This document shows, in pieces, positions 13,645 to 35,896 of a DNA stretch of 61,073 nt. Both the position numbers and the translations under genes were made by a program. Each line of letters starts with the position of its first letter. Positions within the stretch are counted from its first letter, which is position 1. The notes beneath the pieces were generated by a model. The model had not been told where the DNA came from and made no database searches. It saw nothing but the letters and a program-made list of their open reading frames with translations. The stretch is from the NCBI GenBank assembly GCA_021739645.1, contig JAIPBL010000033.1, forward strand, positions 1 to 61,073, written 5' to 3'. The DNA is from Saprospiraceae bacterium. Its GTDB lineage: Bacteria > Bacteroidota > Bacteroidia > Chitinophagales > Saprospiraceae.

Positions 13645-15918
13645 ATGGAAAAGCTCACCTTCCCGCTGCTTTGTTTTAAGCTCAATGAAAATGCCGTTCT
13701 CGGTATTTTGGTAGGCACTTCCCATCAAATTGTGGAGGCCACGCAGGCTAAGGTGAAATCGGTTTTGACCGACCATCTCACCAAAGTTTACAAAAAAGAG
13801 GGCGACTACCCACTGCTCGAACTGGAAGGGCCAACTTTGCGAATGTTGGAGACCAGCTTGCGGCCTACCTATCGCTTTGGTCACAGCGCATTCCCCCTTT
13901 CCAGCAAAGTGAAAATCGCTATGCCACTCGTATATGGCGAAGCAGAACCCGGCGTTTACGAGTGTTTCCTGCCCTTGCTCGACGAAAGTTTTTACTGTTA
14001 TGAATTTGGGCAAATGGACAGCTTGGCTCGACATTTTATCAGCAACACCCTCGACGAAAAAAGCCCGGAGGAAGTTTATCGCTTGGCCAACTACCCTCAG
14101 CCCTCGCTGGAGATTGTCACCCTTAAAATTAAAGAGGACGACTATTTTACTTACACTTGGAACGAGACCAAATCGCCCAAGGTACTGGAGCGGTTGGCCG
14201 AGCTTTACCCGTACCCGAAGGCCGTGCAAAGGAATCTTGCCGCTGCTCCCGATGCCGCTTGGGAACTGGATGAATACGTGGCGCAGGTGGTTGAAAAACT
14301 GATGCACCAACGAGCCAGCGTGTTGGTGGTGGGCGACCACGGAGTAGGTAAAAGTGCAGTGCTGAGGCAGGCTTTCAGAAAGCTCGGCAGTTTTTCAAAG
14401 AAAAACGAAACTGCACAAACCTTTTGGCGAATGCAGGCGCAGCGGTTCACTTCCACGAGCAAATACCTTGGTGAATGGCAGGAAACAGCCGAGGAACTGG
14501 TCTGGGAGCTCCGGGTGATGAACGGTATCCTCTGGGTGGAGAACATTGCACGACTGCTTCGAGAAGGTGGCAAGGGCGTCGAAGATAGTGTAGCGGCTTA
14601 CTTGCTGCCGTTCATGCAGCAAGGCAAGTTGCACATTACCGGGGAAGTCACCCCGCAGGAACTCGAAAGCATGAGGCGGCTACTGCCTGGATTTGTGGAG
14701 AGCCTTCAAATCGTGGAACTGCCGGAGTTGCCAGAGCGAAGCCTTTCTGTGGTGCTCGACAAGTTCAATGGGCACGTGCTGCAAGCCCATAAAATCAATA
14801 TCAGCAGCGATGCGTTGGCCACCTCCACGAGGTTGCTTCGACGTTTTTACCCATACGAAAGCTTCCCAGGAAAGAGCATCCGATTCCTGGGCGAGTGTGT
14901 CAGCGAAGCCATTTTTCAGAAAAAAACGGATGTCAGCAAGGCCGATGTGCTGGCGCAATTTATCAGAAGAACGGGCCTGCCTGAGTTGTTCCTTCGAGAT
15001 GACATGCTACTCGACCAAGTGGCACTCCGCAAATTTTTCAACGAAAAAATCATTGGGCAATCTGCTGCCAACGAGAAGTTGACGGATGTCATCAAGGTTT
15101 TCAAGGCGGGGTTGAACAACCCGCACAAACCAATAACCACGTTGGTTTTTGCTGGCCCTACCGGGGTAGGCAAGACGGCTGCCGCTCAGGCACTTGCACA
15201 ATATTTTTTCGGACTTGGGCAAAAAACCTCGCCGCTCATCCGCATTGACATGAGCGAGTACCAACACCCGTCGCAGATTACCAGGTTCCTTGGCACGGGC
15301 AAAGAACCCGGAAAATTGATACAGCAAGTGCGGGAGCGCCCTTTTGCTGTCCTCCTCCTCGATGAAGCAGAGAAGGCCACACCAGCTATTTTCGATGCCT
15401 TCCTCACCGTTTTGGACGAGGGCATGCTGGTGGATGCCTTTGGGCGCATCACGAACTTCCGCAACTGCATCATCATTTTGACCACCAATCTCGGTGCCAG
15501 CAACCGTGCCTCCATCGGTTACGGCAATCGTATGCCTGATGACGAGACTTACCGCTCGGCCATTGGGGCTTTTTTCCGGCCTGAGTTTGTAAATCGGATA
15601 GACCACGTGGTGGTATTTCAGCCGCTGGGACAGGAAAGTATTCGCCTCATTGCCCAAAAGGAACTGGAGGAGGTGAAGTCGAGGGAGGGTTTTGCAAAGC
15701 GAAACCTAAAAATCACCTTCACTGAGCGGGTTGTTGAGCATATTGCGCAAGTCGGTTTTCATGAAAAATATGGGGCCAGGCCGTTGCAACGGGCTGTGGA
15801 AGATGTGCTCGTGAAAAGCATTGCGAAGTGGCTGTTGGAAAATCCGACGGTGGAAAATAAAGCCTTGGAGGTAGATGTGGATGAGCACAAAGCGGTGACG
15901 GTGGTTGTCTTGGATTGA
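13645..15918 (+). CDS. Divergent Clp/Hsp100-type double AAA+ ATPase, paralogue 1
   Basis: A 757-aa protein with two AAA+ modules. D1 has Walker A GDHGVGKS (from about 228), but the Walker B position reads LWVEN, lacking the catalytic Glu. D2 is complete: GPTGVGKT (about 503), LLLDEAEK (about 570), sensor LTTNLGAS, Arg-finger region FRPEFVNRID and sensor-2 GARPL. The distance from P-loop to P-loop is about 275 residues, as in ClpA, so there is no ClpB/ClpC middle coiled coil. The first 220 residues are not a Clp N-domain; they resemble the N-terminus of the protein at 32555. I624-G625-Y626 occupies the place of the ClpP-docking loop. It probably remodels or unfolds protein substrates; the partner is unknown. 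Start chosen at MEKLTFPLL. Neighbours are unrelated. Confidence 0.88.
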   Translation: MEKLTFPLLCFKLNENAVLGILVGTSHQIVEATQAKVKSVLTDHLTKVYKKEGDYPLLELEGPTLRMLETSLRPTYRFGHSAFPLSSKVKIAMPLVYGEAEPGVYECFLPLLDESFYCYEFGQMDSLARHFISNTLDEKSPEEVYRLANYPQPSLEIVTLKIKEDDYFTYTWNETKSPKVLERLAELYPYPKAVQRNLAAAPDAAWELDEYVAQVVEKLMHQRASVLVVGDHGVGKSAVLRQAFRKLGSFSKKNETAQTFWRMQAQRFTSTSKYLGEWQETAEELVWELRVMNGILWVENIARLLREGGKGVEDSVAAYLLPFMQQGKLHITGEVTPQELESMRRLLPGFVESLQIVELPELPERSLSVVLDKFNGHVLQAHKINISSDALATSTRLLRRFYPYESFPGKSIRFLGECVSEAIFQKKTDVSKADVLAQFIRRTGLPELFLRDDMLLDQVALRKFFNEKIIGQSAANEKLTDVIKVFKAGLNNPHKPITTLVFAGPTGVGKTAAAQALAQYFFGLGQKTSPLIRIDMSEYQHPSQITRFLGTGKEPGKLIQQVRERPFAVLLLDEAEKATPAIFDAFLTVLDEGMLVDAFGRITNFRNCIIILTTNLGASNRASIGYGNRMPDDETYRSAIGAFFRPEFVNRIDHVVVFQPLGQESIRLIAQKELEEVKSREGFAKRNLKITFTERVVEHIAQVGFHEKYGARPLQRAVEDVLVKSIAKWLLENPTVENKALEVDVDEHKAVTVVVLD

Positions 15919-15944
15919 CGCTTTAGGCATTCTTTTTGGGAAAT

Positions 15945-16628
15945 CTAATTCGCCCACCCCAAAATCTTTTTCACCCGCAAGAACTCCCCCTGCAGCCCCG
16001 CCTCGATTTCAATTTTTTCCTTCGTAAATGGGTGCTCAAACCTTAGCGATTCAGCATGGAGCAGCATCGAGTTCATCTGCCATTTTTCCAGCCAAAGCTT
16101 GTTTTGCTTGTTGCAACCGTGCGGCCTATCACCGATGATGGGATGGAAAATATGTGCCATGTGCTTGCGCAATTGGTGTTGGCGACCTGTCTCCGGCAGC
16201 AGTTTCACGAGGGAATAGCGGGAAGTTGGATGTTTACCGAAGGCAACGGGCAGCTCTGACGTGGCGAGTCGCTCGTAGTGGGTGACGGCATCTTGGGTGA
16301 GGCCGTTTTCATTCGTGAGCGGGTAGTTGATTTCATCAATTTCGGGTAGGTATCCACGAACGATAGCAAGGTAAGATTTGCCTACTTGTCGATTTTCGAA
16401 TTTAGATTGCATGAGACTATTCATCTCAGGACTAAGGGCAAATAAAAGTACCCCGCCTGTTTTCCGGTCTAACCGATGTGCTGGATAGACCCGTTGGCCC
16501 AGTTGGTCACGAAGTATTTGAACCGCAAACTCCGAGGCATCGGCGGCAATGGGGGATCGGTGCACCAACAATCCGTGCGGCTTGTTGATGGCCACCAAGT
16601 GTTCATCATGAAAGATGATTTCAAGCAT
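15945..16628 (-). CDS. truC: tRNA pseudouridine(65) synthase TruC-like
   Basis: A 227-aa RluA-family pseudouridine synthase. The catalytic Asp lies in AHRLDRKTGGVLLFAL. The match to TruC is strong along the whole length: NKPHGLLVHRS near the N-terminus, AVTHYERLATSELPVA, TSRYSLVKLLPETGRQHQLRKHMAH, HPIIGDRPHG and MLLHAESLRFEHPFT. It modifies U65 in the acceptor stem of tRNAs such as tRNA-Ile. The start at MLEIIFHDEH coincides with the TruC N-terminus. It converges on the Clp-like ATPase with a 26-bp gap. Other RluC/RluD subfamilies are less likely because of the LLVHRS motif. Confidence 0.92.
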   Translation of the reverse strand: MLEIIFHDEHLVAINKPHGLLVHRSPIAADASEFAVQILRDQLGQRVYPAHRLDRKTGGVLLFALSPEMNSLMQSKFENRQVGKSYLAIVRGYLPEIDEINYPLTNENGLTQDAVTHYERLATSELPVAFGKHPTSRYSLVKLLPETGRQHQLRKHMAHIFHPIIGDRPHGCNKQNKLWLEKWQMNSMLLHAESLRFEHPFTKEKIEIEAGLQGEFLRVKKILGWAN

Positions 16629-16643
16629 AGCAGGGTAGGGGCA

Positions 16644-16689
16644 TTGCAAAAAAAAAACAGGTTTTACCCAATTGAGCAGAACCTGTTTT
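16644..16689 (-). terminator. Rho-independent terminator after the small acidic protein gene
   Basis: Ten-nt perfect arms (16654-16663, 16680-16689) are followed on the minus strand by about ten T residues. It separates the DUF2795-like gene from truC. Confidence 0.85.
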
Positions 16690-16726
16690 ATTGCCTATCC
16701 TAAGCAATTAACTGATTGTCAACGAA

Positions 16727-16948
16727 TTAGTATTCGTCTTCGTTAAACAAGAAGTCGTCTTTCCGAGGATAGTCCGGCCAAATATCTTCAATACTGTCGA
16801 AGAGCTCACCTTCCTCCTCCATTTCCTGTAAGTTTTCGATAACTTCCAAGGGCGCTCCAGAGCGAATTGCATAATCAATTAATTCATCGCGGGTAGCAGG
16901 AAAAGGAGCGTCTTCCAAATGCATAGCGAGTTCAAGGGTCCAGTACAT
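16727..16948 (-). CDS. Small acidic DUF2795-family protein
   Basis: A 73-aa protein, strongly acidic, beginning MYWTLELAMHLEDAPFPATR and ending in an acidic aromatic tail (DFLFNEDEY). This is the short DUF2795-type protein found near-identically across Bacteroidota, usually as a single gene. It is cytoplasmic and of unknown function; the conservation suggests an essential or regulatory role. It has its own terminator on the downstream side and 185 bp of AT-rich upstream DNA. Confidence 0.92.
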   Translation of the reverse strand: MYWTLELAMHLEDAPFPATRDELIDYAIRSGAPLEVIENLQEMEEEGELFDSIEDIWPDYPRKDDFLFNEDEY

Positions 16949-17133
16949 TTTGTGAACAAGTTTAGTTTAATAAAAAGTGCTTTTGCGCACTAATAAGATG
17001 TAGAAATTCAAAAAATTCACTTTCATTAATATTTTTTGAATTTGGCGCAAAAGTAACAAACCAAAACTTTAAACGCAAGGACAGTTTAAAACTGGCGTCA
17101 TTTTTACTAAAAAAAACGATAACTTATTGATAA

Positions 17134-17649
17134 TCAAAAGAATAGAGTTTCGCCAAAATTTTCAAACCTACTGCCTGCACGCTGAATCAAGCCTTTTTTC
17201 ATTGGTTGGTCGAAGGCAATGGAGCCTGCGTTGTGTATCAACCCATTGTTGCGCACATTGGAGTAGTTGGTCCTGTTGATTGTTAACTCACCCTTTACTA
17301 TCAATTCGCCGAAATTCAGAATACCAATTCCTTTTTTTGAAAGGCCATCAATTGTCAGTTTTCCGTGTTGACTAATTACCAGCCGTGCATCTGGTTCGAT
17401 GACCAATTGAGCTATATCGTTCACGAAAAAATCAATAATCGGGTAAAAACACCGGCCTTCGGGGTCGCTTGGTATCACCACTTTGTCAAACCACTCTGGT
17501 ACGTGCCTATTGAACCAGTTCATCGGTTCCATCCAGTCATGCTCTAATCCACTTGCGCCACCTTCCCAAAAATGCGGAACGGTGATTTTCTTCTGGCTGC
17601 AGCCGCCTTCTTGTGGCATGGGCCGCACCATCCTCATGTCTTTCTTCAT
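17134..17649 (-). CDS. Hypothetical beta-solenoid-like protein
   Basis: A 171-aa protein. The central region carries the pattern DWMEPMNWFNRHVPEWFDKVVIP followed by short strand repeats (LVIEPDARLVISQHGKLTI, GILNFGELIVKGELTI, GLIHNAGSIAF), as in the W..NPxNW/G8-like parallel-beta modules found in large Bacteroidota surface proteins. No signal peptide is visible, and the N-terminus (MKKDMRMVRPMPQEGGCSQ) has a lone Cys. It may be a free-standing or truncated module of a larger adhesin. The start could also lie at one of the internal Met codons. Function is unknown. Confidence 0.7.
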   Translation of the reverse strand: MKKDMRMVRPMPQEGGCSQKKITVPHFWEGGASGLEHDWMEPMNWFNRHVPEWFDKVVIPSDPEGRCFYPIIDFFVNDIAQLVIEPDARLVISQHGKLTIDGLSKKGIGILNFGELIVKGELTINRTNYSNVRNNGLIHNAGSIAFDQPMKKGLIQRAGSRFENFGETLFF

Positions 17650-17808
17650 GTGTTAGTTTTTGCTGGGAGGCCAAAATGAAAGTGAAATAAAATATGGGAG
17701 GAATTTTACAAGGGAGGAATGCACTGGGAAAAACAAATACTAAGCCAATCCGCTTTAACAGCGAACGATTTTTGGCATGGCAATTTTTTGAAAAATATTA
17801 AATACAGC

Positions 17809-18840
17809 TTAAAATATTGGGCAAGCCTTGAATTCCTTTGGCGGATGCACCTTCCACAAAATGTACTGCAGAAAAAATTCAGGCCCACCTCTTCGGTAGG
17901 TAGCGATGTTGAAAGGAGAGAAGTTTTGGTCGTAGCTAAAACCTGCAGTCCAATTCCTGTATTGAACTTCAACAGAAGGCACCAAAGCATCGCCAAATCG
18001 CATGGCTATGCCAGCTTGTACGTTCAATTCGGCATCTTTTACCGTACTGAAATGATAGCGGATGGCTGCTCCTGCTACTGCCTCTTGATAGCTGAGTTGT
18101 TTTGAAAAAAGCCCATTTGCACGTAGGTCAAGCGTTTGGGTGAGTTGAATAGTTGTCATCAAATAAGGTGAGAATTTGATGGGCAAATTGGTTTTTTCGT
18201 CATTATCAAAACTGGTATTGGGCTGGTTAAGGTGAAAAATTCCACTGCCAAGGTCAACTTTGGTGCGAGTCCCATCCACTTGATAGTGCAGGTTCAGTCC
18301 GGTCGAGATGCTGCCGATGCCCTTGCTGGTACCACTGAACGACTCACCGTTCGATAGGTTTGGGTCATAAATGTCGCCGTTCCACTGCTCTTCGTAACTC
18401 AATTTTTCTGGACTGACCGAACGCTGCCCAACGGCAATCTGGGTGCCAATACTGGCAAATAACGCGTCGCTTAATTGCCGGGTAAAAGATAAATTTGCCC
18501 CAACTTGGGAAATGCCGATTTGGGCATCGCCAGCCACATCGTTGTTGAAAACAAGGCCATAGCCGAGGTAGCCATTTTTAGCAAATGCCTTGTGGTAAAG
18601 CTTGGAATCAAATGCTCCCGAAAGGGTGCGATAGTCCACAGGCACGGAACTCCATTGGCTGCGATAGTTGGCAACAAAGCGAAGGTCGCCACCGAAAACC
18701 CCCGTCAATGCTGGGTTCAGGTTGGCTGGCGAATTGTTGAATTGGGAAAAATGGATGTCCTGAGCATTTGCCGTCAGGGTGCTAATCAAAAGGACAATGG
18801 CCACTGAAAACTGAAAAGAGCTTGTGTAAACGAGTTTCAT
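17809..18840 (-). CDS. PorP/SprF family type IX secretion membrane protein, copy 1
   Basis: A 343-aa protein with a signal peptide (MKLVYTSSFQFSVAIVLLISTLTANAQ). It begins with the family hallmark DIHFSQFNNSPANLNPALTGVFGGDLRFVANYRSQWSSVP and continues as an outer-membrane beta-barrel ending in EFFLQYILW. PorP/SprF proteins work with the T9SS, often for one large type B substrate encoded next to them. This copy has no type B substrate beside it; the nearest exported giant is the divergently oriented SprB-repeat protein 1 kb away, across coaE. The start at 18840 gives the signal peptide. Confidence 0.92.
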   Translation of the reverse strand: MKLVYTSSFQFSVAIVLLISTLTANAQDIHFSQFNNSPANLNPALTGVFGGDLRFVANYRSQWSSVPVDYRTLSGAFDSKLYHKAFAKNGYLGYGLVFNNDVAGDAQIGISQVGANLSFTRQLSDALFASIGTQIAVGQRSVSPEKLSYEEQWNGDIYDPNLSNGESFSGTSKGIGSISTGLNLHYQVDGTRTKVDLGSGIFHLNQPNTSFDNDEKTNLPIKFSPYLMTTIQLTQTLDLRANGLFSKQLSYQEAVAGAAIRYHFSTVKDAELNVQAGIAMRFGDALVPSVEVQYRNWTAGFSYDQNFSPFNIATYRRGGPEFFLQYILWKVHPPKEFKACPIF

Positions 18841-18913
18841 AAAAAGGTTTTTTCGTCGAAATTGCACCCAAGTTAGGGTGGCTTCCCGGGTTTTGAAAAT
18901 ATTGATAAAAATT

Positions 18914-19555: not shown

Positions 19556-19755
19556 GCTTTCAACTAAATATTTTTTTAGAAAACACATAATCATTTTTCT
19601 TAAATGGTACAGTTTTTGACCAAAGCCTAAATACCAGCCAATATCTTAAGGCTGGCAAAACAAATACAATACGCCGGTTCAGCCATTTCCTATAGTTTCC
19701 CACCGGAAAACAAGCACTTAAGATTGAATTTTCCCCTCCTGCTTTCCTGATTAAA

Positions 19756-19773
19756 ATCATTCTTATGAATGAT
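19756..19773. promoter_or_regulatory. Operator-like palindrome upstream of the SprB-repeat gene
   Basis: Seven-nt arms ATCATTC and GAATGAT are separated by TTAT. The palindrome lies 10 nt upstream of the -7 box, where the -33 element should be. It would suit a dimeric repressor or activator. No regulator gene is adjacent. Confidence 0.35.
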
Positions 19774-19783
19774 GGTCTCGACG

Positions 19784-19791: not shown

Positions 19792-19824
19792 CCGTGATTA
19801 TCATTGTTTTATGTATTGAAAAAG

Positions 19825-22800
19825 ATGACTATGAAAGTGCTTCACTTCCAATCGTGGTGTGATTTAGTATGCTACACCTGTTTTTCATTCTTTGAATCCA
19901 AAAGAGCGAAATCCATTTCCATCAAATCTTTGCTGCTGGCAATCCTGATGTTGCCGCTAGTGAACTCCAATGCTACCAATCCAACGGACAAGACCTGTCT
20001 TGCTTGTGACAACGTTGTAAACGGTGGTACCATTCAATCGGATGAATTCGGTTGCCCAAATCCAACATGGGACCCTTCGCTTATTACCAGCGTAACACTG
20101 CCCACCGGCGGTTCTGGCAATTTGGAGTTCCTTTGGATTTTCACTACCAATGACCCCACCTTGCCGCTGAGTCAATGGACGCCAATTCCGGGTACCAACA
20201 GCCCGAACTACGACCCTGGCCCGATTTCCATAACAACTCACTATCGCCGATGTGCAAGGAGGTCTGGCTGTTCGGATTACGTCGGTGAAACTAATATCGT
20301 CACGAAAGAGGCCCTTTGCTGCGACAATGTAACGGACGGAGGTACTATCGGAATAAGCCAAGTTGCATGTCTCGCACCTTATGACCCAGCACTTCTGACC
20401 AGTATCACCTCGCCATCTGGAGGCTCAAATGTCCTTGAATATCAGTGGGTTATCAGCTCAACGGGCACACCATACACCCCAACCAATCCGGATTGGGTTT
20501 TTATTGCTGGCGCAAACAGCGAGACATTTGACCCTGCCATCATTTCACAGACGACCTATTATATCCGTCTGGCTCGAAGGCATGGTTGTTTAGTTTACGA
20601 CGGCGTATCCAATATGATAACCGTTGCTATTTCTGATAACCTCGCCGCCACAGCAGTCGCTGACAGCGTGACTTGTTTCGGGGGAAATGACGGCTCAATC
20701 GACCTAACTCCTACGGGTGGTACGACGCCATACACGTATGCTTGGTCTGGTGGCCTCGGTTCTTCTGCGGACCCGCAGAACGTCATCCCAGGCAACTACT
20801 CGGTCACGGTGACGGATGCCAACGGCTGTGCAACCACGACTTCTGCAACGGTAGGAGATGGCGACCAAATCACATTGACAGCTAGTGCTACCCATGAAAT
20901 TTGTGATGGTGCCGAAAATGGAACGGCAACATTGACCAGTACAACTGGCGGACAGGCGCCTTATTCAATGGTTTGGAGCACGACACCTGCACAGACAGCC
21001 TCGCAGATTATTGACCTTGCGCCAGCAACCTACACGGTCACGGTCACGGATGCGCAGGGATGCACGGCCACGGCATCGGCCACGGTGAATGCTGGGCCAG
21101 CACTTGCAATTACACTTTTTTCCACCAATGTTATTTGTTTTGGAAAAAATCAAGGCTCCGCAATGGTTGATGCCGTTGCAAATGGTTCTGGGTCATATAC
21201 TTATCTATGGAATGACGCTGCTTCGCAAACCAGCCAATCCATTGCGAACCTGTTTGCTGGAAACTATACAGTAACAGTGACCGACGACCAGGGTTGCGCA
21301 GGTTCTGCCACAGCAATTATTGCCGACGGCCCGCAAATCTTCGTGAACCCATCCCACACCAATGCTACCTGCAATTACACCACGGACGGTTCGGCGACGG
21401 TAACGGTTTCTGGCGGCGTTTCACCTTATTCTTATTTATGGGATGATGTTGCTGCGCAAACAACAGCAACTGCTGATGCACTCGCAGCGGGCATTTACCA
21501 TGTAACCATTACCGATGCGAGTGGATGCACAACATCTTCCACAGCGACAGTGGAAGCACCCATCTCTGCCGAAATTACCACAAGTGGCAGCAACGTAAGT
21601 TGCTTCAATGGATTGGATGGTGTTGTTTCAGTTTCGGTGACAAATGGTAGTCCTGCCAATTACAATTACACTTGGAATGACCCCAATTCCTCAAATACGG
21701 CCTCGGTTTCTGGGCTTTCAGCAGGCACTTATGGGGTGACAGTAACGGACAACAACGGTTGTCTTGTGACAGCATCCGTTTCGATAACCCAGCCAACCCA
21801 ATTGGTCATTTCAATGGCCTCAACTGACGCCACTTGCGGCAACGGCAGCGATGGTTCGGCAACGGTGACCGCTGGTGGAGGAACACCTGGGTATGATTAC
21901 GCTTGGAGCTTACCGGCTAGCCCAAATGCGCCAGTGTTGAACAATGCGCCCGCTGGCACGTACTCGGTGACGGTGACCGATGACAACGGTTGTTCAGCAA
22001 TTGGGACATCGACTATTGGCGCACCGCCAGTGCTCACAGCAAATTTGATAGTAGCAAATGTCACTTGCAACGGCTTGAACGATGGCCAAATGAGCGTTGT
22101 GGCTGGCGGCGGAGTTGGCCCCTACACTTTCGCATGGAACAGCCCCGGTGCCCCATCGGGTACATCCATCAGTGGCCTTTCCCCTGGGAATTACGGGGTT
22201 ACTGTGACGGACGCAGTTGGATGCACAGCCACAGCATCTGGCACTGTCACCGAGCCAGCAACCCTGACGGTTTCTTTCCAAAAAAATGATGTGATTTGCG
22301 TGGATGCAACAAACGGCTCTGCGATTGCGATTCCAGCTGGTGGCACAGCGCCATACGCCTACCTCTGGGCGGGTGGACAAACCACCGCAAATATTTCAAA
22401 CCTTGCCACTGGTTTTTACCAAGTAACGGTCATTGACAACCATTTCTGCCAAGTGGCTGGAACCGTTCAAATCATTTCCACAACTACTTTGAACCTGTCC
22501 ACCACAACAGTTCCAGCCAACTGCTTTAACAGCAATGACGGCACAGCAACCGCTATCGCGACAGGCGGCACAGCGCCTATCACCTATTTGTGGAGCAATG
22601 GTGCGACTACTGCCTCGAACGCTGGTATTTATGCTGGAAATTATTCAGTGACCGTCTCAGATGCAGATGGCTGCGTTCTCAGCAAGGATGCCATCGTGGC
22701 TTCACCACCTCAATTAACTGGGCCTGCCAGTTTGGTTTCGGCTGTAACTACCTACGGAGGCAGCAACGGTTCGATAAAAGTAACGCCGGGTGGCGGCACA

Positions 22801-24795
22801 GCTCCGTACACCGTGCTTTGGAACAATGCTAGCTCGGCTACGACGGTCACGGGCCTTACCGCAGGTACCTACTCCGTGACCACAACGGATGCCCACAACT
22901 GCACGGTTTCATCAACGATTACACTGGTCAACCCCTCGAAAGTAGGCGACTATGTTTGGCACGACCTGAATCAAAACGGCATCCAAGAAACGGGCGAGCC
23001 AGGTTTGGACAGCGTGAAGTTGCACTTGATAGGTGCAACCAGTACGGGCGTTCAAATCCATTTGACCACCTACTCCGACTCGACTGGTTTCTATGCTTTT
23101 GATGGCCTTGCCGCTGGCGTTTACCAAGTAAAAGTGGACTTGCCAGCTATCCATGTTTTCTCGCCGATGAACGTTGGTAGCGATTTCACGGACAGCGATA
23201 TCAACCAGGCTGACAGTTCAACGGCGGTGTTCAACCTCGCTGTAAACCACTATGACAATTTTTGGGATGTCGGACTGATTGAACTCGATGAGAAAATAAA
23301 CATCGGAGACTTTGTTTGGCAAGATGCCGACCACGATGGTATTCAGGATATTCAAGAGCAGGGTATTGCAAACTACACCGTTCGCTTGTACAGTATGCCC
23401 TCCAACACGTTGTTGGCGACCAGAACAACCAATGCGATTGGCAAATACCTCTTCACGGATGTTTACCCCGGTTTGTACCAAATAGAGTTCGTATTGGGCA
23501 ATTTGCCGAACGGCAGCGTTTATTCGCCACCGAACCAAGGCTCTAACGACAATATTGACAGTGACCCTGACCCTGCAACGGGCCGGACGGCTACTTTCCA
23601 GGTTTTTCCATATACGGTGGACAACCTAACCATTGATGCCGGGGTGTTCAAAGAATGTGACAACATAACCGATGGCGGCTTGGTTGGATACAACGAAAAC
23701 CTCTGTGGCAATGGCGCAGACCCAGCCGAAATCGTCAATTTGACCTCTCCATCTGGCGGCTTCGGCGTGTTGGAATACTTGTGGTTGAAGAGTACCATGC
23801 CTGTTTACAACGGCCCTGGTGATCCGAACTGGATGATGATTCAAAACTCAAACAGCGCAAATTATAACCCAGGCCCAATTTTCCAGACAACTTATTACAT
23901 CCGGTGCGCTCGCCGGGCAGGTTGCCCCGATTACCCTGGAGAGAGTAACATTGTTTCTAAAACCATCACACCAAATCCGCTTGCGCAAATCATCGACCAT
24001 CCGAATGTCATTTGCAAGGATGTTGGGGGGCGTTTCGAAGCTGCAATTGCAGGTGGAGGTGCTACTTATGCTTGGGATTTTGGTGCTGACGCAACGCCTG
24101 CCACCGCCGCTTCGAGGGTTGTTAATCCGGTGTCCTGGTCAACGGAAGGTATCAAGACCGTTTCACTCACGGTGACCCGTTTCGGCTGTTCTGTTACCGT
24201 GACTGTTACCGTTGCCGTAAACACCTGCGGCAGTCCGATAATAATTATTTTTGACGATGTTTTTGCTGAATTGAATGGCGCAGCGGTAAACCTGCGCTGG
24301 CATGCAACAGGTTTTGAACCAAACAACACTGTTTTCAGGGTGCAGCGCTCAGAGAATGGGAATGATTATGAAAACCTGAATGCCATGGCTGGTACAGACT
24401 GCGACGCAGACGGCATTTTCCACTTCATAGATAGCAGGCCGAAATTGGGTGAAAATTTTTACCGCATCGAATATCGCCAGTCTGGCGAGAACGCAAGCCA
24501 AGGCTTGTCCAATACCACAAATATTTTCAACAAGCCAGCTGGAGTACTTCCTATCCAACTTTATCCTAACCCAACCTCAGGCTTGGTGACGGTGGAGTTC
24601 GTCAAACTGTCCTCCAATTCCTCGACCATCCAGGTGAACGATGCCTTCGGGCGAGTGATATTTGAGTCGCAAGTGCCGGAAATGACCGAGAAAACCGAAC
24701 TTGATTTGAGCCAACTTCCGCTTGGTTTGTACTGGGTTCGTATCACCTCGGAGAACGTTCGGGAGCAGGTGGTAAAAGTTGTAAAATCAGAATAA
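19825..24795 (+). CDS. SprB-repeat surface adhesin with SdrD-B domains and T9SS type A sorting domain
   Basis: A 1656-aa exported protein with a long signal region ending at about residue 50. Order of parts: two copies of a roughly 100-aa CDNVxxGGTI module (60 and 166) with paired Cys and the phrase YRRCARRSGC; ten SprB repeats at about 278-1035 (VTCFGGNDGS ... YSVTVTDANGC); two SdrD/Cna-B-like domains from about 1039 and 1157 (VGDYVWHDLNQNGIQ, IGDFVWQDADHDGIQ); a third CDN module at about 1277; a PKD-like domain at about 1390 (YAWDFGADATPA); a fibronectin-like domain; and a C-terminal type A tail (LYPNPTSGLVTVEF ... GLYWVRI). SprB in Flavobacterium is a mobile gliding adhesin but uses a type B tail. 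The start at 19825 or 19831 is equally possible. Confidence 0.93.
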   Translation: MTMKVLHFQSWCDLVCYTCFSFFESKRAKSISIKSLLLAILMLPLVNSNATNPTDKTCLACDNVVNGGTIQSDEFGCPNPTWDPSLITSVTLPTGGSGNLEFLWIFTTNDPTLPLSQWTPIPGTNSPNYDPGPISITTHYRRCARRSGCSDYVGETNIVTKEALCCDNVTDGGTIGISQVACLAPYDPALLTSITSPSGGSNVLEYQWVISSTGTPYTPTNPDWVFIAGANSETFDPAIISQTTYYIRLARRHGCLVYDGVSNMITVAISDNLAATAVADSVTCFGGNDGSIDLTPTGGTTPYTYAWSGGLGSSADPQNVIPGNYSVTVTDANGCATTTSATVGDGDQITLTASATHEICDGAENGTATLTSTTGGQAPYSMVWSTTPAQTASQIIDLAPATYTVTVTDAQGCTATASATVNAGPALAITLFSTNVICFGKNQGSAMVDAVANGSGSYTYLWNDAASQTSQSIANLFAGNYTVTVTDDQGCAGSATAIIADGPQIFVNPSHTNATCNYTTDGSATVTVSGGVSPYSYLWDDVAAQTTATADALAAGIYHVTITDASGCTTSSTATVEAPISAEITTSGSNVSCFNGLDGVVSVSVTNGSPANYNYTWNDPNSSNTASVSGLSAGTYGVTVTDNNGCLVTASVSITQPTQLVISMASTDATCGNGSDGSATVTAGGGTPGYDYAWSLPASPNAPVLNNAPAGTYSVTVTDDNGCSAIGTSTIGAPPVLTANLIVANVTCNGLNDGQMSVVAGGGVGPYTFAWNSPGAPSGTSISGLSPGNYGVTVTDAVGCTATASGTVTEPATLTVSFQKNDVICVDATNGSAIAIPAGGTAPYAYLWAGGQTTANISNLATGFYQVTVIDNHFCQVAGTVQIISTTTLNLSTTTVPANCFNSNDGTATAIATGGTAPITYLWSNGATTASNAGIYAGNYSVTVSDADGCVLSKDAIVASPPQLTGPASLVSAVTTYGGSNGSIKVTPGGGTAPYTVLWNNASSATTVTGLTAGTYSVTTTDAHNCTVSSTITLVNPSKVGDYVWHDLNQNGIQETGEPGLDSVKLHLIGATSTGVQIHLTTYSDSTGFYAFDGLAAGVYQVKVDLPAIHVFSPMNVGSDFTDSDINQADSSTAVFNLAVNHYDNFWDVGLIELDEKINIGDFVWQDADHDGIQDIQEQGIANYTVRLYSMPSNTLLATRTTNAIGKYLFTDVYPGLYQIEFVLGNLPNGSVYSPPNQGSNDNIDSDPDPATGRTATFQVFPYTVDNLTIDAGVFKECDNITDGGLVGYNENLCGNGADPAEIVNLTSPSGGFGVLEYLWLKSTMPVYNGPGDPNWMMIQNSNSANYNPGPIFQTTYYIRCARRAGCPDYPGESNIVSKTITPNPLAQIIDHPNVICKDVGGRFEAAIAGGGATYAWDFGADATPATAASRVVNPVSWSTEGIKTVSLTVTRFGCSVTVTVTVAVNTCGSPIIIIFDDVFAELNGAAVNLRWHATGFEPNNTVFRVQRSENGNDYENLNAMAGTDCDADGIFHFIDSRPKLGENFYRIEYRQSGENASQGLSNTTNIFNKPAGVLPIQLYPNPTSGLVTVEFVKLSSNSSTIQVNDAFGRVIFESQVPEMTEKTELDLSQLPLGLYWVRITSENVREQVVKVVKSE

Positions 24796-26036: not shown

Positions 26037-26050
26037 ATATGGGATATAGA

Positions 26051-27420: not shown

Positions 27421-27497
27421 TGAGGCTGATTTGAACAATCGGCCAGTAAATCGTTTACTATGGTACACTAAATAATTCAGTTTAAAACTTGGTAAAA

Positions 27498-27812
27498 ATG
27501 ACAATTCAATTCAACACAGACCGGAATGTGAACGGAAATGAGGCTGTAACCGCACCTTTTATTGCCCTGATTTCTGAAGAACTTAGCCGGTTCAGTCACC
27601 AGATTACAAGGATAGAGGTGCATCTTTCGGATGAAAACGGCAAAAAAGAAGGTGAGAAAGACAAACGCTGCATGCTGGAAGCTCGGCTCGAAGGATTGGC
27701 CCCAATCGTCGTTACGAACCTTGCTAATACTCGTGACCAAGCGGTAGAGGGTGCAATTGAAAAATTGAAATCGTTACTTGATAAAACGCTGAGTCGGTTG
27801 AGTAACTATTAA
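27498..27812 (+). CDS. HPF/RaiA-like ribosome-associated protein
   Basis: A 104-aa protein with the HPF/sigma-54-modulation layout: an N-terminal strand ([15 protein letters not shown]), a helix ([27 protein letters not shown]), central strands ([18 protein letters not shown]) and a C-terminal helix ([20 protein letters not shown]). HPF proteins bind the 30S decoding centre in resting cells. It has no long C-terminal dimerisation domain, so it is a short-type HPF. It sits 100 bp upstream of cbpA-cbpM, which suggests a stress or stationary-phase group. The start at 27498 is the first ATG. Confidence 0.75.
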
Positions 27813-27839
27813 AAAAAAGCCAGCTTGCTTTTGCACATC

Positions 27840-27874
27840 GTGTCGGCGTCACTACAAGTGAAGCCGATACTTTT
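27840..27874 (+). terminator. Hairpin between the HPF-like gene and cbpA
   Basis: Arms 27840-27852 and 27858-27870 pair at 12 of 13 positions, counting one G-U pair, and are followed by TTTT. It may be a weak terminator for the HPF-like gene or a structured leader of cbpA. Confidence 0.5.
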
Positions 27875-27916
27875 AACATTTCTGGAGAAATTCAAAGCAA
27901 AAAGTATCAAATCAAC

Positions 27917-28810
27917 ATGGCATTTATTGACTATTATAAAATACTGGGGGTTGAAAAAAACGCTTCTGAGGGTGAAATAAAAAAGGCCTACCGGAAAATG
28001 GCCCGGAAATATCACCCAGATTTAAACCCAAATGACAAAGCTGCGGAACAAAAATTCAAGGAAGCAAACGAGGCAAACGAGGTGTTATCCAATGCCGAAA
28101 ACCGCAAGAAATACGACAAGTATGGCAAGGACTGGCAACATGCTGAGGCATTTGAGCAGGCCAACCAACAACGAGGCCAGCGGCAACAAAGCCAATACTC
28201 TTCTGAGGGTTTTTCGGGTGGTGAGGATTTTTCCGATTTCTTTCAGTCCATGTTTGGTGGCGGTGCTTCCAGGGGACGTGGAAGAAGTGTGAAATTCCGA
28301 GGCCAGGACTATAATGCTGAATTACGCCTTGATATAAAAGAAGCATTTACCACACATAAACGTACCCTGAATGTGGATGGAAAGAACATCCGAATCACGA
28401 TACCTGCGGGCATTCAGGATGGCAAGATTATCCGTATAAAAGGCCAAGGTGGTGCTGGTATAAATGGTGGGCCGAACGGTGATTTACTCATAAGTTTCAT
28501 TATTGAAAACAACACGAATTTTAAGTTGGACAATAACAATTTATATGCTACGGTCGATTTGGATTTATATACCGCCATATTAGGCGGAGAAATAACAGTG
28601 GATACTTTCGATGGCATGGTGAAATTCAAAGTAAGGCCCGAAACACAGAATGGCACCAAGTTAAAACTCAAAGGAAAGGGCTTCCCCGTTTATAAAAAAG
28701 AGGGCGAATTCGGTGATTTATACATCACTTTTCAGCTAAAAATACCCACCGACCTCACCGAAAAAGAAAAAGAACTATTTACTGAACTTTCAAATTTAAG
28801 GTCATTATGA
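27917..28810 (+). CDS. cbpA: CbpA-type DnaJ homologue (Hsp40)
   Basis: A 297-aa co-chaperone. The N-terminal J-domain ([23 protein letters not shown]) carries the HPD motif in [12 protein letters not shown]-rich linker follows ([20 protein letters not shown]), then two C-terminal beta-barrel substrate-binding domains ([40 protein letters not shown]). The Cys4 zinc-finger region of DnaJ is absent, which marks it as type II/CbpA. It stimulates DnaK ATPase activity. It overlaps cbpM by 4 bp (ATGA), so the two are translationally coupled. Confidence 0.94.
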
Positions 28811-29112
28811 GCGCAGCGGAAAACTATATCGAAATCAGTCAATTGTGCCTACATTATGAAATCGAAACGTCATTTATCGACGACTTATGCGAATATGGTT
28901 TAATTGAAATCAGTACCATTGAGCAAGCTCGTTTCATTCACCATGACAGGATTTGTGACCTTGAAAAGATCCTTCGATTGCAGCGGGATTTGGATATCAA
29001 TATGGAAGGAATCGCTTCGGTGCTGCACTTGTTGCAAAAGATAGATAGACTTCAAGCAGAGTTGAATGCAGTTCACAACAAGTTGCAGATTTATGAGGGG
29101 AAGGAAGATTGA
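28807..29112 (+). CDS. cbpM: CbpM-like modulator of CbpA (MerR-type fold)
   Basis: A 101-aa protein. The N-terminal part ([20 protein letters not shown] followed by LCEYGLIEI) and the central helix ([21 protein letters not shown]) match the CbpM/MerR-like chaperone-modulator family. The C-terminus is a coiled coil ([20 protein letters not shown]). It overlaps the cbpA stop codon, as in the known cbpAM operons, where CbpM binds the J-domain and inhibits it. Confidence 0.88.
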
Positions 29113-30884: not shown

Positions 30885-32282
30885 ATGAATAGAACACTTA
30901 CCCTCCTCGTTTTTCTTTTTCTTTCAGATTTCTGTTTTTGCCAGCATTTTTTCTGTCCCAACCCCTCCGTATCGGTAACCGAGGAACGAATAAATGTATT
31001 TCTAACAGAATTTCCTGAAATCGAAGCTAAAGTATCCTTGTACAATTTAAGCAAACCGGTTTTTCAGACAATACTTATTGTTCAATCGAATGCAGGGTAT
31101 TCCATAGCAGACAGGCGGTTCAACTATGGAAGGGTCATTCCGAACGAACGGTTAAAGAATTTTTCCGCTTTTGCCGCCTCCAGAAATGGAGTTGTTGCTT
31201 GTAGCCAGCGTTCATCGGGGTTAGAAGCAGTTGCTTTGAGCCTTCACTTTTTGCGATCAAATAAAAAGAAAGCCTTGTCAGATGCCAAATGGCTTACACT
31301 TGTTTTTGGCCCAGATGGTGACCTATCAAGCCTGGCAAAAGAAGCGGATATGATATATAGCATCATAAATAAGAAAAATTTTAAAGACTTGGGTTTAGGA
31401 TTTGGAGTTATGTCCAATGACATCCCTACGGATGAATTCGCTGCCTCATTGCCCCAAAAAGAAAATTCAGCAATTGAAGAACCCAACATGACCCCTGTGA
31501 ATGTCAAACCAAGCCATCCAAATGAACCAATGACTACGCTAATTAGATCAGAATTAGGTACAACCAATAAGGCCAAGCATGAAAATGTGCCTATAATTAA
31601 ACAGCCTAAACAAAACACACCAATCGTTGAGCAGGCTGCAATAATGCATAATAAAGCTGATATTATAAGCGATTCAGCCGAGACAGAAAACGCAAAGATA
31701 TTTGCCAGTGAAAATATTTTAAAGAACGCTGAAAAAACAAAGTTAGAGCCGGAACCTGAAGCTGTAACAGCGGAAAAAGGGACGGCAACAGGTGACAAAA
31801 CGGAGCGACGTGATATTTCTGGGACATACAGTTTTTATGGATTTGAAAACTGCAATTACCAAAAAAGTGCTAATGAGATTTTCAATTCCAAAACAGGGCA
31901 TAATTCCAAAAAGATTACCATTGCTGGTTCTAACATGTTTGCGGAACAAATTAACACTCCTTATGAAATTACCAAAGTAAATGATCATTTTCACTTAAAA
32001 CATACTAATATCTTAAAGGTTACAAGAGTTGATAACGGCACTATAAATGTCACTAAAGTAGAGGGTGCCGGTGACATTAAGATACAGGACAATAAGTACG
32101 TTTTATTTGAAAACAGAGTCTATACTAATTCTGTAGCTGATTTAAAACACCTTAACGAACTCGTTGCCTTTGAATTAATACCACTTCCAAACAATAGAAT
32201 ATTACTTAGACCTATTTCTACTGATATGCCTAAACCAATCCCACAAGACTCTAATTGTAGTTTAATCATGGAAAAACAGTGA
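30885..32282 (+). CDS. AT-rich orphan secreted protein
   Basis: A 465-aa protein with a clear signal peptide (MNRTLTLLVFLFLSDFCFCQ). Residues 20-170 look globular (FPEIEAKVSLYNLSKPVFQT, GLEAVALSLHFLRSNKKKAL). Residues 190-305 are a low-complexity, charged Glu/Lys/Asn/Thr linker, and residues 310-465 form a second, beta-rich domain (DISGTYSFYGFENCNYQKSA). I recognise no family. The base composition is visibly more AT-rich than the flanking genes and codon use shifts to A/T endings, which suggests recent acquisition. The start at ATG 30885 is preferred over the TTG at 30876. Confidence 0.75.
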   Translation: MNRTLTLLVFLFLSDFCFCQHFFCPNPSVSVTEERINVFLTEFPEIEAKVSLYNLSKPVFQTILIVQSNAGYSIADRRFNYGRVIPNERLKNFSAFAASRNGVVACSQRSSGLEAVALSLHFLRSNKKKALSDAKWLTLVFGPDGDLSSLAKEADMIYSIINKKNFKDLGLGFGVMSNDIPTDEFAASLPQKENSAIEEPNMTPVNVKPSHPNEPMTTLIRSELGTTNKAKHENVPIIKQPKQNTPIVEQAAIMHNKADIISDSAETENAKIFASENILKNAEKTKLEPEPEAVTAEKGTATGDKTERRDISGTYSFYGFENCNYQKSANEIFNSKTGHNSKKITIAGSNMFAEQINTPYEITKVNDHFHLKHTNILKVTRVDNGTINVTKVEGAGDIKIQDNKYVLFENRVYTNSVADLKHLNELVAFELIPLPNNRILLRPISTDMPKPIPQDSNCSLIMEKQ

Positions 32283-32484
32283 GTTAAAATAAGTCAAATA
32301 ATCTTATAGGCGCAAAGCTTTCTAATTCAAATGCCCTTCATTTTCTGATATCCGGCTTGTAACCTAGCCTGTTGTGGCCTCCTTGCCGTTGTATGTAAAC
32401 AATTTCTGCCTATGCCATTAAATCCTCTAATTACCTACAATCTCCAATTGCAATTCCCTTTCTTTGCCCCATAAAATAGTGTGT

Positions 32485-32541
32485 GCGAGTGAGCAGGGTG
32501 AGCGGGAGTGAATTGCTCACCCGCTCACCTCTCTCACTCGC
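32485..32541. repeat. Family D palindromic repeat just upstream of the second Clp-like ATPase
   Basis: Arms 32485-32505 and 32521-32541 (21 nt each, 3 mismatches) are built from CGAGTGAG/GGTGAGCGG words. The palindrome ends 13 nt before the ATG at 32555 and would place a strong stem-loop over the ribosome-binding region if transcribed. Confidence 0.8.
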
Positions 32542-32554
32542 TCGACCGATAAAA

Positions 32555-35500
32555 ATGCCAACCACCACCCTCAACATACCCATCTTAGTATTGCCGACCA
32601 AACTCGATGGCCAGGCGGCCTTTCAGGTGCGGCCTGTGTTCTTCTCTGCACCGGTGGGGGTACATCGCAGGTACAGCGAGGCATTGTCCCTTTTCAAAAA
32701 GCAAGTAAAACGCCGTTACACGGGCTACACCTTCACTCGACCTGGAGCAGAACAATTGCTTTGGTACAAGTTTGGGCCAGAGGTGAAGCTGAGCCAGTAC
32801 ATGCTGGAATTCAGCATTGGCAGCCACTTTATCAAAGGGCGTTTTAGTGTAGCCAGCTTTGAGTGGCAAGGATTGACTTATGCCAGTCTTCCGAACTTTG
32901 ACTCATTTATGTTTATCGTAAAACACAATGAAAAAGGCAAAGCAGACCTGAAAGTGGAGACGGAACGAGTGGTGCGTGAACTTTTGCGCAGCAGAAAACA
33001 AATAGATGGCAGCGAGTTTGATGCCGAAGCCTATTACGCTGAAAAAAAGGAGTTCGTGACGACGGTGCAGGTGGAGGCAAAATTCCTTGAGACAAATTTC
33101 AGTTTTGAAAAGAGCGGGATGGATGGCATCATGGCTGCTTTTAGGTTGCAGGAACAATTTGATGGAGGTGAGGAAATCGAGAAAGTGGCCACTGACCTAG
33201 GCGCCCATTATCCAGAGGAACTGAACCGGGCTTGGCAGCAAGAGCCGCTTGTGGAACAGTTGTACCAGCTGATTTTTAGCAATAAATGGCTAGGGGAAAG
33301 TGACCGGGTGACTCAAAGCCACCCGGCCACTGGTAGGATGGGGGCCAATAATCCGTTGGTTCTCGTTGGGCCGGAAGGTGTGGGCAAGCACACGGTAATC
33401 CATGAAGTGGTTTATCGCTACATGGCCAGTGTCACAAAAAACACGGACGACGATTGGCAGCGGCAATATTTTTGGCACCTGAACCCCAGTCGGGTTATTG
33501 CTGGAATGAGCATTGTGGGGCATTGGGAAAAGCGCTTCGAGGCCATTTTGCAGTACGTGCAGTCGCCGCCCCGACGAGAATATTTCCCAGACAAACTGCT
33601 GGTGGACAATCCCGTGGCGTTGTTGCGCATCGGAAAATCCAAAGGGAGCGACTTGTGCCTTGCCACGGTGCTAAAACCGTTTTTGGAAAAAAGAAAAATC
33701 CAACTTGTGCTATTGGCCACGCCAGAGGAGTGGAAAATCGTGCAGGAGGGCGACCGCAGCTTTGCCGACCTGTTTCAGGTCCTTCGGATGCCTGAGCCGG
33801 ACGTGCCTACTGCTATTAAAATTGTATTGCAAAACCGCAGCCTGCTGGAACTTCAAACCGCTAGCTCCATCACAGTGCCTGCCATCACGCAGTTGTTTTC
33901 AATTCAACGCAACTACCTGAAAAACAAGGCATTGCCCGGTTCGGTGATGCGGTTGCTGACGCAATTAACCACAAAATACAGCCACACGGTAATTGATGCG
34001 CCGCAGGTACGGGAGGAGTTCAAGTCGTTCAGCGGGATGCAGGAGCAGATTTTCGAAGAGCAATCGCCCATCGAAAAAGATGAACTGCGGCGAATGCTGC
34101 AACAGGAATTGGTGGGTCAATCAAGTGCCGTGGATGCGTTGTCTGGGGTTGTTCACCTTATAAAAGCCCGCCTCACCGACCGTAACCGGCCGCTGGCCTC
34201 TTTCCTTTTCATTGGCCCGACGGGCGTCGGAAAAACCCATGCTGCCAAGCTCCTCAGCAAGACCATTCTCGGCAGCGATACGAAGCTGATGCGCTTCGAT
34301 ATGAACGAGTACATCGACGGTGGGGCGCTGCACCGGCTCATTGGCGACAGCCAAAACCCCGAAGGGCAACTGACTGGCAAGGTCCGCTACCAGCCTTTCG
34401 GAGTGCTGCTGCTGGATGAAATCGAAAAGGCGCACCCCAGCATCCACGACCTGTTGCTCCAGGTGCTCGACGATGCCCGACTGACGGATAGCTTGGGTCG
34501 GACGGTAGATTTTTCCAATACCATCATCGTTATGACCTCCAACCTTGGCGCACGGGAGGCTGATTCGCAAATTGGCTATGCGAGCAAGAGCAAGGACGCA
34601 AGTGCTGTTTACCGCAAGGCCGTCGAGCAGGCTTTCCGGCCAGAATTGGTCAACCGCATTGAGCAGATTGTCGTGTTCAACCCCTTGGAATTCAAGGAGA
34701 TACAAAAAATTGCGCAGCTACAAATTCGGGAACTGTTGCAACGAGATGGTTTTGTGCGCCGCACCACCATTGTCAATGTTTCGGAGGAGGCACTGGATTG
34801 GGTGGCCCGGCGTGGCTTCGATGCCAAAATGGGCGGGCGGGCGCTCAAGCGGCAAATCGAGCGAGACCTGACGTTGCTTTCTGCCGAGCAGCTTATCAAG
34901 TCAACGTCAGAAACGCCCGTCATCCTGGATATTTTGTTTGAAAATGAGCAGCTAGTACCTCAAATAACGCCCATCGATTTGGCTGCTCCACTTACTGGCC
35001 CGTGGCTACCTGAAATACCCGAGGAGCACACCGCCGTTCGTTTTTTCAACAAACTGCTGCACCGCTTGGAAAAAGTGGAAAAAGAAGTGGCCAGTTTCGA
35101 GCGGCGGCAGGAGCGGCAGGGCCGGCTTTATAATGTGGCTGGACAGGACGCCGACTGGAAGCACTACGATTTTAAGAACAAGGTAGCCAGCCTTAAAGAG
35201 AGCCTTCAGTTTAAGGCGTTGCGGCTGCGGGAGCGCCGATTGACCATGACCCCTGCTGTGCCTCTGCGCCTCAAACGGGTTTATCTCAATGAATTTGATG
35301 AGACGGGAAAGGCCCGAAAAGAGGCACTTCGTGACAAGCATTTTCAAGAAGAAGCCATGAAAACGCTTCGGGAGGAATACCGCCACCAAAGCCCGGAGTT
35401 CGACAGTTTTGAGACGGAATATTTGGTCAGCTACTTTGACCTCACGTTTCTGGAAAGCATGTTGAAAGGGTTTTTGAATCAGAAGACAGAGAAGGTCGTC

Positions 35501-35896
35501 CTGCGCCTGTCTTCCGCTGTGACAAATGCTGGGGTGGCTGAAATGGAGTTTCTATTGAATCAATACAGCCTGCTGCTTTCTGCGATGGACATTGCCCACG
35601 ATATTCTAACTGACCTACGAAGCATCGAAGCGGAGGAGCACAGTCTTGGAACACTGCTGGCTGGAGAAGCTGGCTTGCACTTGTTTTATATCAATAACGG
35701 TACGCCGGTGCCGATTCGGCTTTCACTGGAAAAAGATGGGATACAGTTGCCATCGCCACCGCTCGTTATCCGGATTTACGATGGGAAAGACACCCAAGTT
35801 GACCTTCGGACGGGCTACACCAACACCTTTGCTATGACGCCTGACGAGATGAAGTTGCTGTTGTTTGGGGGCATGTATAATCAACCACCAGTTTGA
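32555..35896 (+). CDS. Divergent Clp/Hsp100-type double AAA+ ATPase, paralogue 2, with C-terminal extension
   Basis: A 1113-aa protein. The N-terminal 250 residues are not a Clp N-domain and resemble those of the ATPase at 13645. D1 has P-loop GPEGVGKH (272-279; the Thr/Ser after Lys is His), and the Walker B position reads LLVDN (N352), lacking the catalytic Glu. D2 is complete: GPTGVGKT (554-561), LLLDEIEKAH (D621, E622), MTSNLGAR, FRPELVNRIE and sensor-2 GGRALKRQI. The P-loops are 276 residues apart, ClpA-like, with no middle coiled coil. I673-G674-Y675 sits at the ClpP-loop position. Residues from about 800 to 1113 are an extra domain starting with a coiled coil (HRLEKVEKEVASFERRQERQ). 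It is probably a protein unfoldase or remodeller; substrate and partner are unknown. Confidence 0.88.
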   Translation: MPTTTLNIPILVLPTKLDGQAAFQVRPVFFSAPVGVHRRYSEALSLFKKQVKRRYTGYTFTRPGAEQLLWYKFGPEVKLSQYMLEFSIGSHFIKGRFSVASFEWQGLTYASLPNFDSFMFIVKHNEKGKADLKVETERVVRELLRSRKQIDGSEFDAEAYYAEKKEFVTTVQVEAKFLETNFSFEKSGMDGIMAAFRLQEQFDGGEEIEKVATDLGAHYPEELNRAWQQEPLVEQLYQLIFSNKWLGESDRVTQSHPATGRMGANNPLVLVGPEGVGKHTVIHEVVYRYMASVTKNTDDDWQRQYFWHLNPSRVIAGMSIVGHWEKRFEAILQYVQSPPRREYFPDKLLVDNPVALLRIGKSKGSDLCLATVLKPFLEKRKIQLVLLATPEEWKIVQEGDRSFADLFQVLRMPEPDVPTAIKIVLQNRSLLELQTASSITVPAITQLFSIQRNYLKNKALPGSVMRLLTQLTTKYSHTVIDAPQVREEFKSFSGMQEQIFEEQSPIEKDELRRMLQQELVGQSSAVDALSGVVHLIKARLTDRNRPLASFLFIGPTGVGKTHAAKLLSKTILGSDTKLMRFDMNEYIDGGALHRLIGDSQNPEGQLTGKVRYQPFGVLLLDEIEKAHPSIHDLLLQVLDDARLTDSLGRTVDFSNTIIVMTSNLGAREADSQIGYASKSKDASAVYRKAVEQAFRPELVNRIEQIVVFNPLEFKEIQKIAQLQIRELLQRDGFVRRTTIVNVSEEALDWVARRGFDAKMGGRALKRQIERDLTLLSAEQLIKSTSETPVILDILFENEQLVPQITPIDLAAPLTGPWLPEIPEEHTAVRFFNKLLHRLEKVEKEVASFERRQERQGRLYNVAGQDADWKHYDFKNKVASLKESLQFKALRLRERRLTMTPAVPLRLKRVYLNEFDETGKARKEALRDKHFQEEAMKTLREEYRHQSPEFDSFETEYLVSYFDLTFLESMLKGFLNQKTEKVVLRLSSAVTNAGVAEMEFLLNQYSLLLSAMDIAHDILTDLRSIEAEEHSLGTLLAGEAGLHLFYINNGTPVPIRLSLEKDGIQLPSPPLVIRIYDGKDTQVDLRTGYTNTFAMTPDEMKLLLFGGMYNQPPV

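Follow-up and report, generated by a model that had tools for sequence, protein, structure and literature searches.

The window analysed here is a 61,073-nucleotide stretch of contig JAIPBL010000033.1 from a Saprospiraceae bacterium (assembly GCA_021739645.1), and it encodes two unusual Clp-like proteins, which we call P1 and P2. A third unusual gene, P3 (1109 amino acids; contig C45, L069:3847-7176), lies outside the window in the same genome and carries its own N-terminal and C-terminal extensions. The three proteins form one branch apart from the ClpA, ClpB and ClpC sequences tested, and their genes are nearly always present or absent together in the family. We propose, with a probability of about one half, that P1, P2 and P3 are subunits of a single lineage-specific Clp/Hsp100-type unfoldase driven by its second AAA+ module (D2), the assembly being inferred from sequence. 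We favour this proposal because of the shared branch, the joint presence, the states of the catalytic and pore motifs, and the related terminal domains.

Pfam placed AAA_2 and ClpB_D2-small in both P1 and P2, giving two AAA+ modules in each protein. The P-loops start at residues 230 and 504 of P1 (274 apart) and at residues 272 and 554 of P2 (282 apart), in agreement with the initial annotation of this DNA, which had described two double-AAA+ proteins with P-loops about 275 residues apart. This spacing leaves no space for a middle domain of ClpB size and therefore confirms that the ClpB-type coiled coil is missing, as had been claimed. The N-terminal regions of the two proteins matched no Pfam family up to E=10, hence no Clp_N, and the reported absence of Clp N-domain repeats was thus upheld. 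The N-terminal region of P3 gave one weak, unrelated Pfam match, and no Pfam family was convincing at either terminus of the proteins. P1 and P2 scored far under the curated cut-offs of the ClpA and ClpB models, and with 215.3 bits (P1) and 236.2 bits (P2) they did not reach the curated ClpV (TssH) cut-off of 884.95 bits. In a BLAST comparison, residues 226-735 of P1 aligned to residues 268-785 of P2 with 32% identity, and no convincing alignment was obtained upstream of the AAA+ region.

P1 had eight matches in its own genome, in some cases as two fragments of a single gene, and ordinary ClpB/ClpC-type genes were included among them. A tree of the AAA+ region was computed from 40 rows, namely 28 from the trio, six ClpC-type and four ClpB-type rows from the family, and E. 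coli ClpA and ClpB; ClpV, ClpE, ClpL and ClpI stand outside this set, as do the highly divergent P1 and P2 of two genomes (G570 and G486). The P1 (9), P2 (9) and P3 (10) rows each formed one group, and all 28 were located on one side of a 100/100 branch, opposite the 12 ClpA/B/C rows. Among these 12 reference rows, the trio fell inside none of the ClpA, ClpB and ClpC clades, and its own branches were long. The uncharacterised Hsp100 branch suspected in the initial annotation is borne out by this separation.

Profiles of the three N-terminal domains (P1N, P2N and P3N) matched 71, 74 and 76 of 199 family genomes, respectively; all three were found in 69 genomes and any of them in 78. Fisher tests of the co-presence gave values of 1e-44 to 2e-48, uncorrected for the tree. 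In a sample of 61 family genomes, matches to P1, P2 and P3 fell in the same 24, as read by eye from the tables. By both measures, the co-occurrence of P1 and P2, which the initial annotation had put forward for checking, is nearly perfect. P1N was detected in 1 of 395 genomes of the phylum and the C-terminal domain of P3 (P3C) in 1 of 296 genomes, in both cases the genome of the window; the P2 C-terminal domain (P2C) was detected in 2 of 296, this genome and, as a weak partial match (E=0.001), one from another family. The 28 named P1 records comprise 25 titled Saprospiraceae, Phaeodactylibacter or Aureispira, one titled Saprospirales, and two titled by phylum alone; 27 are records of metagenome-assembled genomes (MAGs), and the record of Aureispira sp. 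CCB-QB1 is not labelled as such.

Nine genomes were exceptions to the joint pattern in the N-domain profiles. P2N was missing from G504 and G518, and P1N from G550 and G569; G546 had P2N and no P1, together with a match, cut by a contig end and sharing 38% identity with P1, that may represent P3; G486 had a weak P2N only, G570 weak P2N and P3N, and G459 and G573 a P3N fragment alone. A full-length P1 search, run on these nine genomes and on G453, recovered P1-like and P3-like genes of divergent sequence in both G570 and G486, and in the former also a P2-like gene, whereas P2 in G486 sits in an open frame of only 474 residues; the genus of these two genomes probably has the set. Four exception genomes are 88-90% complete and one is 64% complete; incompleteness does not explain G504 (98%) and G459 (100%). 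The lone P3 fragment in G459 (contig C125:6270-6782, within a 222-residue open frame; genome completeness 100%) is probably the relic of a lost set. The whole set also differs within genera: in g1 (G000 and G544 with, G453 without), in g22 (G517 with, G021 without) and in g32 (G524 with, G031 without). On a tree of ClpC-type proteins from 22 trio-positive and 33 trio-negative family genomes, picked for a listed ClpC-type match, the trio label needed 8 changes compared with a shuffled mean of 17.5, and at least 5 of the 8 were forced by starred branches; the tree is built on one gene, many of its forks are weak, and its rows were identified as ClpC from their size and, for four of them, from their starts. 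The 8 changes indicate that the joint presence does not reflect the inheritance of one clade.

The two AAA+ modules differ in their motifs. In the first module (D1), the catalytic Glu was kept in 2 of 63 P1, 0 of 75 P2 and 0 of 75 P3 rows, related sequences being counted several times in these and all following motif counts. An Asp occupies its position in 49 of 63 P1 rows, the Arg-finger pair of D1 is replaced, and His stands for the Walker A Ser/Thr of D1 in 50 of 75 P2 rows. The Walker B Asp-Glu of D2 was intact in every row (63/63 P1, 75/75 P2 and 75/75 P3), and D2 Walker B, Arg finger and sensor 2 together were intact in nearly all. Judged by these motifs, D1 is catalytically degenerate and D2 is intact in all three proteins. 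The D1 pore aromatic was found in 63 of 63 P1, 7 of 75 P2 (as Tyr) and 0 of 75 P3 rows, the P3 column being taken as equivalent by its neighbouring Gly. The D2 pore segment has 5 residues in 52 of 53 P1 and 6 residues in 74 of 74 P2 and 63 of 69 P3 rows, compared with 11 residues in 55 of 55 ClpC rows. Its aromatic was present in 2 of 53 P1, 62 of 74 P2 and 51 of 69 P3 rows; the D2 pore counts leave out rows that did not fit the pattern (10/63 P1, 1/75 P2 and 6/75 P3). The pore aromatics thus tend to be complementary, with that of D1 in P1 and that of D2 mostly in P2 and P3.

At the position of the ClpP-docking loop, a docking-like tripeptide, [LIVM]G[FYWLI], was present in 51 of 59 P1 and 51 of 64 P2 rows in which the loop was located, and the strict motif [LIVM]G[FL] in 43 of 59 and 40 of 64, respectively. 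The ClpC control gave 0 of 55, because the flanking residues of ClpC did not fit the pattern; one ClpC row has VGF in the loop. Of 23 trio-positive genomes, 11 had a second ClpP match (E<1e-40), truncated at a contig end in one case, as against none of 26 trio-negative genomes; the trio-positive G008 was not included. The genome of the window has one ClpP and no second. Large genomes are commoner among the trio-positive ones, and genome size is a confounder of this association.

The N-terminal domains were compared as deep profiles (63 P1, 75 P2 and 75 P3 rows) with 60 column-shuffled controls. The end-to-end score of P2N with P3N exceeded all 60 controls, and P1N with P3N reached a global score of 27.4 versus a shuffled maximum of 12.7. 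The direct match of P1N to P2N was weak, with a local score of 22.3 versus a shuffled maximum of 20.7 and a global score of 3.6 that 27 of 60 shuffles also reached. By these profiles, the N-domain resemblance of P1 and P2 appears to hold mainly via P3. Of the shared N-domain claimed in the initial annotation, the link through P3 therefore stood and the direct P1-P2 alignment remained borderline; this likeness is the weakest part of an observation that otherwise held, no standard N-domain having been found and the genes co-occurring. AlphaFold2 modelled P1N from a 29-row alignment with block means of the predicted local distance difference test (pLDDT) of 84-92 over residues 1-160, except 69 at residues 51-60. 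A second look at the fold search ranked antitoxin entries at the top, three of them titled HicB, and Foldseek gave no match at E<=0.001. Compared with the HicB antitoxin N-terminal domain, the P1N unit is duplicated and no sequence-profile similarity was detected; the modelled fold may be loosely HicB-like.

The C-terminal domains of P2 and P3 appear related to each other, with a local profile score of 39.3 versus a shuffled maximum of 27.3 (60 shuffles). Both seem to resemble the PCRF part of release factors. Against a PCRF profile built from 12 sequences, of which the family contributed 10, P2C scored 32.4 (shuffled maximum 19.0) and P3C scored 35.0 (shuffled maximum 20.1; 40 shuffles each), and the matches cover the PCRF part ending E.G.H. 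Pfam PCRF itself appeared in 1 of 23 and 2 of 20 members, with E-values no better than those of unrelated families. GGQ is not conserved, its letters occurring incidentally in the last 350 residues of 1 of 46 P2 and 3 of 44 P3 sequences.

In the machine that we propose, P1, P2 and P3 would assemble into mixed two-ring hexamers in which the D1 ring would be a silent scaffold and the D2 ring the motor. For substrate threading, P1 would provide the D1 pore aromatic, and P2 and P3 those of D2; the three N-domains would recruit clients, and the loops of P1 and P2 could dock ClpP. More speculatively, and from domain ancestry, the release-factor-like domains may tether this assembly to a partner, for example the ribosome. 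A narrower version, drawn by analogy and in our view quite unlikely, is an obligate three-subunit Hsp100 ring serving as a ribosome-linked quality-control motor. Its release-factor-derived C-domains, without the GGQ hydrolase, would place the ring at stalled or damaged ribosomes, and the D2 motor would extract factors or nascent chains for ClpP, roughly as Cdc48 does in the ribosome quality control of eukaryotes.

Several observations weigh against the single-machine proposal. The three genes lie apart in the genome. A membrane-protein family of about 378 residues directly follows P1 in 10 of 29 loci (L110, L111, L112, L113, L115, L118, L120, L123, L124 and L127), and a subtilase-like gene follows P3 in 7 of 20, neither being so placed in the genome of the window; no other family occurs near P1 in more than 5 of the 29 loci. 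No full ClpP match was found in the trio-positive genomes G005 and G022, and four or five genomes have only two of the three genes. The D2 aromatic is missing in 18 of 69 P3 and 12 of 74 P2 rows, which is why complementarity is given as a tendency, and the docking-like tripeptide occurs in just 34 of 68 P3 rows, mostly as IGW, with the strict form in 2 of 68. In the N-domain comparison, one control pair, P1N against P2C, had a local score of 27.4, as high as the local 27.1 of P1N with P3N, so that only the global score carries the P1N-P3N claim; the local P1N-P3N alignment pairs the first half of P1N with the second half of P3N, which fits an internal repeat and not an end-to-end register. For the C-domains, HH-suite gave low probabilities locally (28% for P2C and 46% for P3C; 22% and 85% globally), hmmsearch against Protein Data Bank sequences returned no release factor for either, and a single-sequence model of the P2 C-domain was uninformative (mean pLDDT 37.1).

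The separation of the genes, and a D2 that is intact in each protein so that each could act alone, would equally suit three separate homohexameric Clp-like machines kept together by the same physiological programme and forming no common complex. We consider this possible but rather unlikely, as the D2 aromatic is absent in 51 of 53 P1 and the D1 aromatic is mostly absent in P2 and P3, so that each protein, working singly, would hold its substrate in just one ring, and as the co-presence is very tight. The degenerate D1 and the docking-like loops might instead point to regulatory or inhibitory paralogues of house-keeping ClpC/ClpP that mix with ClpC and not with each other, and the 22 trio-positive genomes of the ClpC-type tree, chosen for such a match, do have ClpC-type genes in addition to the trio. 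This is improbable: the 33 trio-negative genomes of that tree have a ClpC-type gene without the trio, the three go together and have no Clp_N, and their D2 pore loops are 5-6 residues shorter than those of ClpC.

A role in an apparatus dedicated to assembling or recycling, for instance, a surface structure or a contractile injection system, in the manner of ClpV in type VI secretion, could be brought into line with P1 in Aureispira sp. CCB-QB1 and other Aureispira and with the large genomes of many carriers. P1 and P2 score far under the curated ClpV cut-off, however, and no injection-system gene was recognised among the recurrent P1 neighbours (no co-occurrence search was made), leaving this highly improbable. 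Ordinary lineage-specific ClpB/ClpC duplicates, whose ends drift and which have no particular function in common, would explain the long branches and the weak P1-P2 N-domain similarity; they would not be expected to keep D2 Walker B invariant in all 63 P1, 75 P2 and 75 P3 rows, to conserve unique terminal domains, or to come and go jointly, same-genus contrasts included, and we disfavour this explanation strongly.

The features of P1 and P2 are listed in Table 1. An explanation by operon logic was set aside, the P1 and P3 neighbourhoods having no constant partner (29 and 20 loci), and so was a defence system, PADLOC having matched its ATPase models to the AAA+ region. The matches to the N-domains of P2 and P3 are separated by 7 kb in G483 and by about 12 kb in G542 and G489, with genes between them that look ordinary by eye. 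The window genes named below were likewise recognised by eye. An RluA-type pseudouridine synthase follows P1 (15945-16649, minus strand), and members of its sequence cluster are also found near P1 in L125 and L135-L137. Ferredoxin-like and IscX-like open reading frames lie directly downstream of P2 (35904-36618, plus strand), and an RtcB-type RNA ligase gene is 3 kb from P2 (38981-40450, minus strand). Release-factor H is linked to RtcB in the literature (PMC6514570); no claim here rests on RtcB. A small HPF/RaiA-like open reading frame adjoins DnaJ-type and CbpM/MerR-like genes (27489-29112, plus strand), and a repetitive protein of 1663 residues (19804-24795, plus strand) is probably a secreted surface protein.

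Table 1. Features of the P1 and P2 genes in the window.
Feature	Position	Strand	Remark
P1 gene, 757-residue double-AAA+ Clp-like protein	13645..15918	+	opens with Met
P1 N-terminal domain, about residues 1-165	13645..14139	+	about two tandem b-b-b-a-b units
P1 D1 module	14278..14979 (approximate ends)	+	P-loop and pore aromatic kept; Walker B and Arg finger degenerate
P1 D2 module	15007..15915 (approximate ends)	+	ATPase motifs intact; pore loop shortened, without aromatic
P1 IGY tripeptide, position of ClpP-docking (IGF) loop	15514..15522	+	
P2 gene, 1113-residue double-AAA+ Clp-like protein	32555..35896	+	opens with Met
P2 N-terminal domain	32555..33289	+	colinear with P3 N-domain
P2 D1 module	33317..34054 (approximate ends)	+	His for Walker A Ser/Thr, Asn for catalytic Glu
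P2 D2 module	34082..34924 (approximate ends)	+	ATPase motifs intact; pore loop shortened
P2 IGY tripeptide, position of ClpP-docking loop	34571..34579	+	
P2 C-terminal domain, putatively release-factor (PCRF)-like, without GGQ	34997..35893	+	profile comparison
P2 PCRF-like core segment, ending GEAGLHLFY	35522..35689	+	
P2 IRIYD...DLRTG segment, RF2-end-like by eye	35768..35827	+	not significant alone

The trio resembles ClpA and ClpC in having two AAA+ modules about 275-280 residues apart, in its D2 motifs and in the position of the docking loop. It differs from them in the lack of Clp_N, the degenerate D1, the D2 pore loop shorter by 5-6 residues, the separate branch (100/100) and the extra C-terminal domain in P2 and P3. 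With class I Clp/Hsp100 proteins it shares two AAA+ modules with ClpB_D2-small, whereas the D1 catalytic residues are not kept. By profile, the C-domains of P2 and P3 line up in register with the PCRF region of RF1/RF2 and score above shuffles, but they have no conserved GGQ and are fused behind an unfoldase. To our knowledge, a bacterial Hsp100 made of three different subunits has no precedent. A search of a PubMed Central library, by titles and abstract starts and with the terms used, found no description of the trio or of a Clp-release-factor fusion. ClpI of Actinomycetota is likewise a lineage-specific double-ring Clp class, which is described as having an N-domain that varies, LGF motifs that are present or absent, intact ATPase modules and an M-domain (PMC10149685); set against that description, the trio differs in its degenerate D1, its three co-occurring members and its new terminal domains.

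If the proposal is right, a three-subunit Hsp100 would offer a natural test of how labour is divided between a scaffold layer and a motor layer in such rings. As P1 is present in the Aureispira sp. CCB-QB1 record, which is not labelled as a MAG, the idea is testable in a cultured relative. The release-factor-like tails of P2 and P3 further raise the possibility that these bacteria have an unfoldase coupled to translation.

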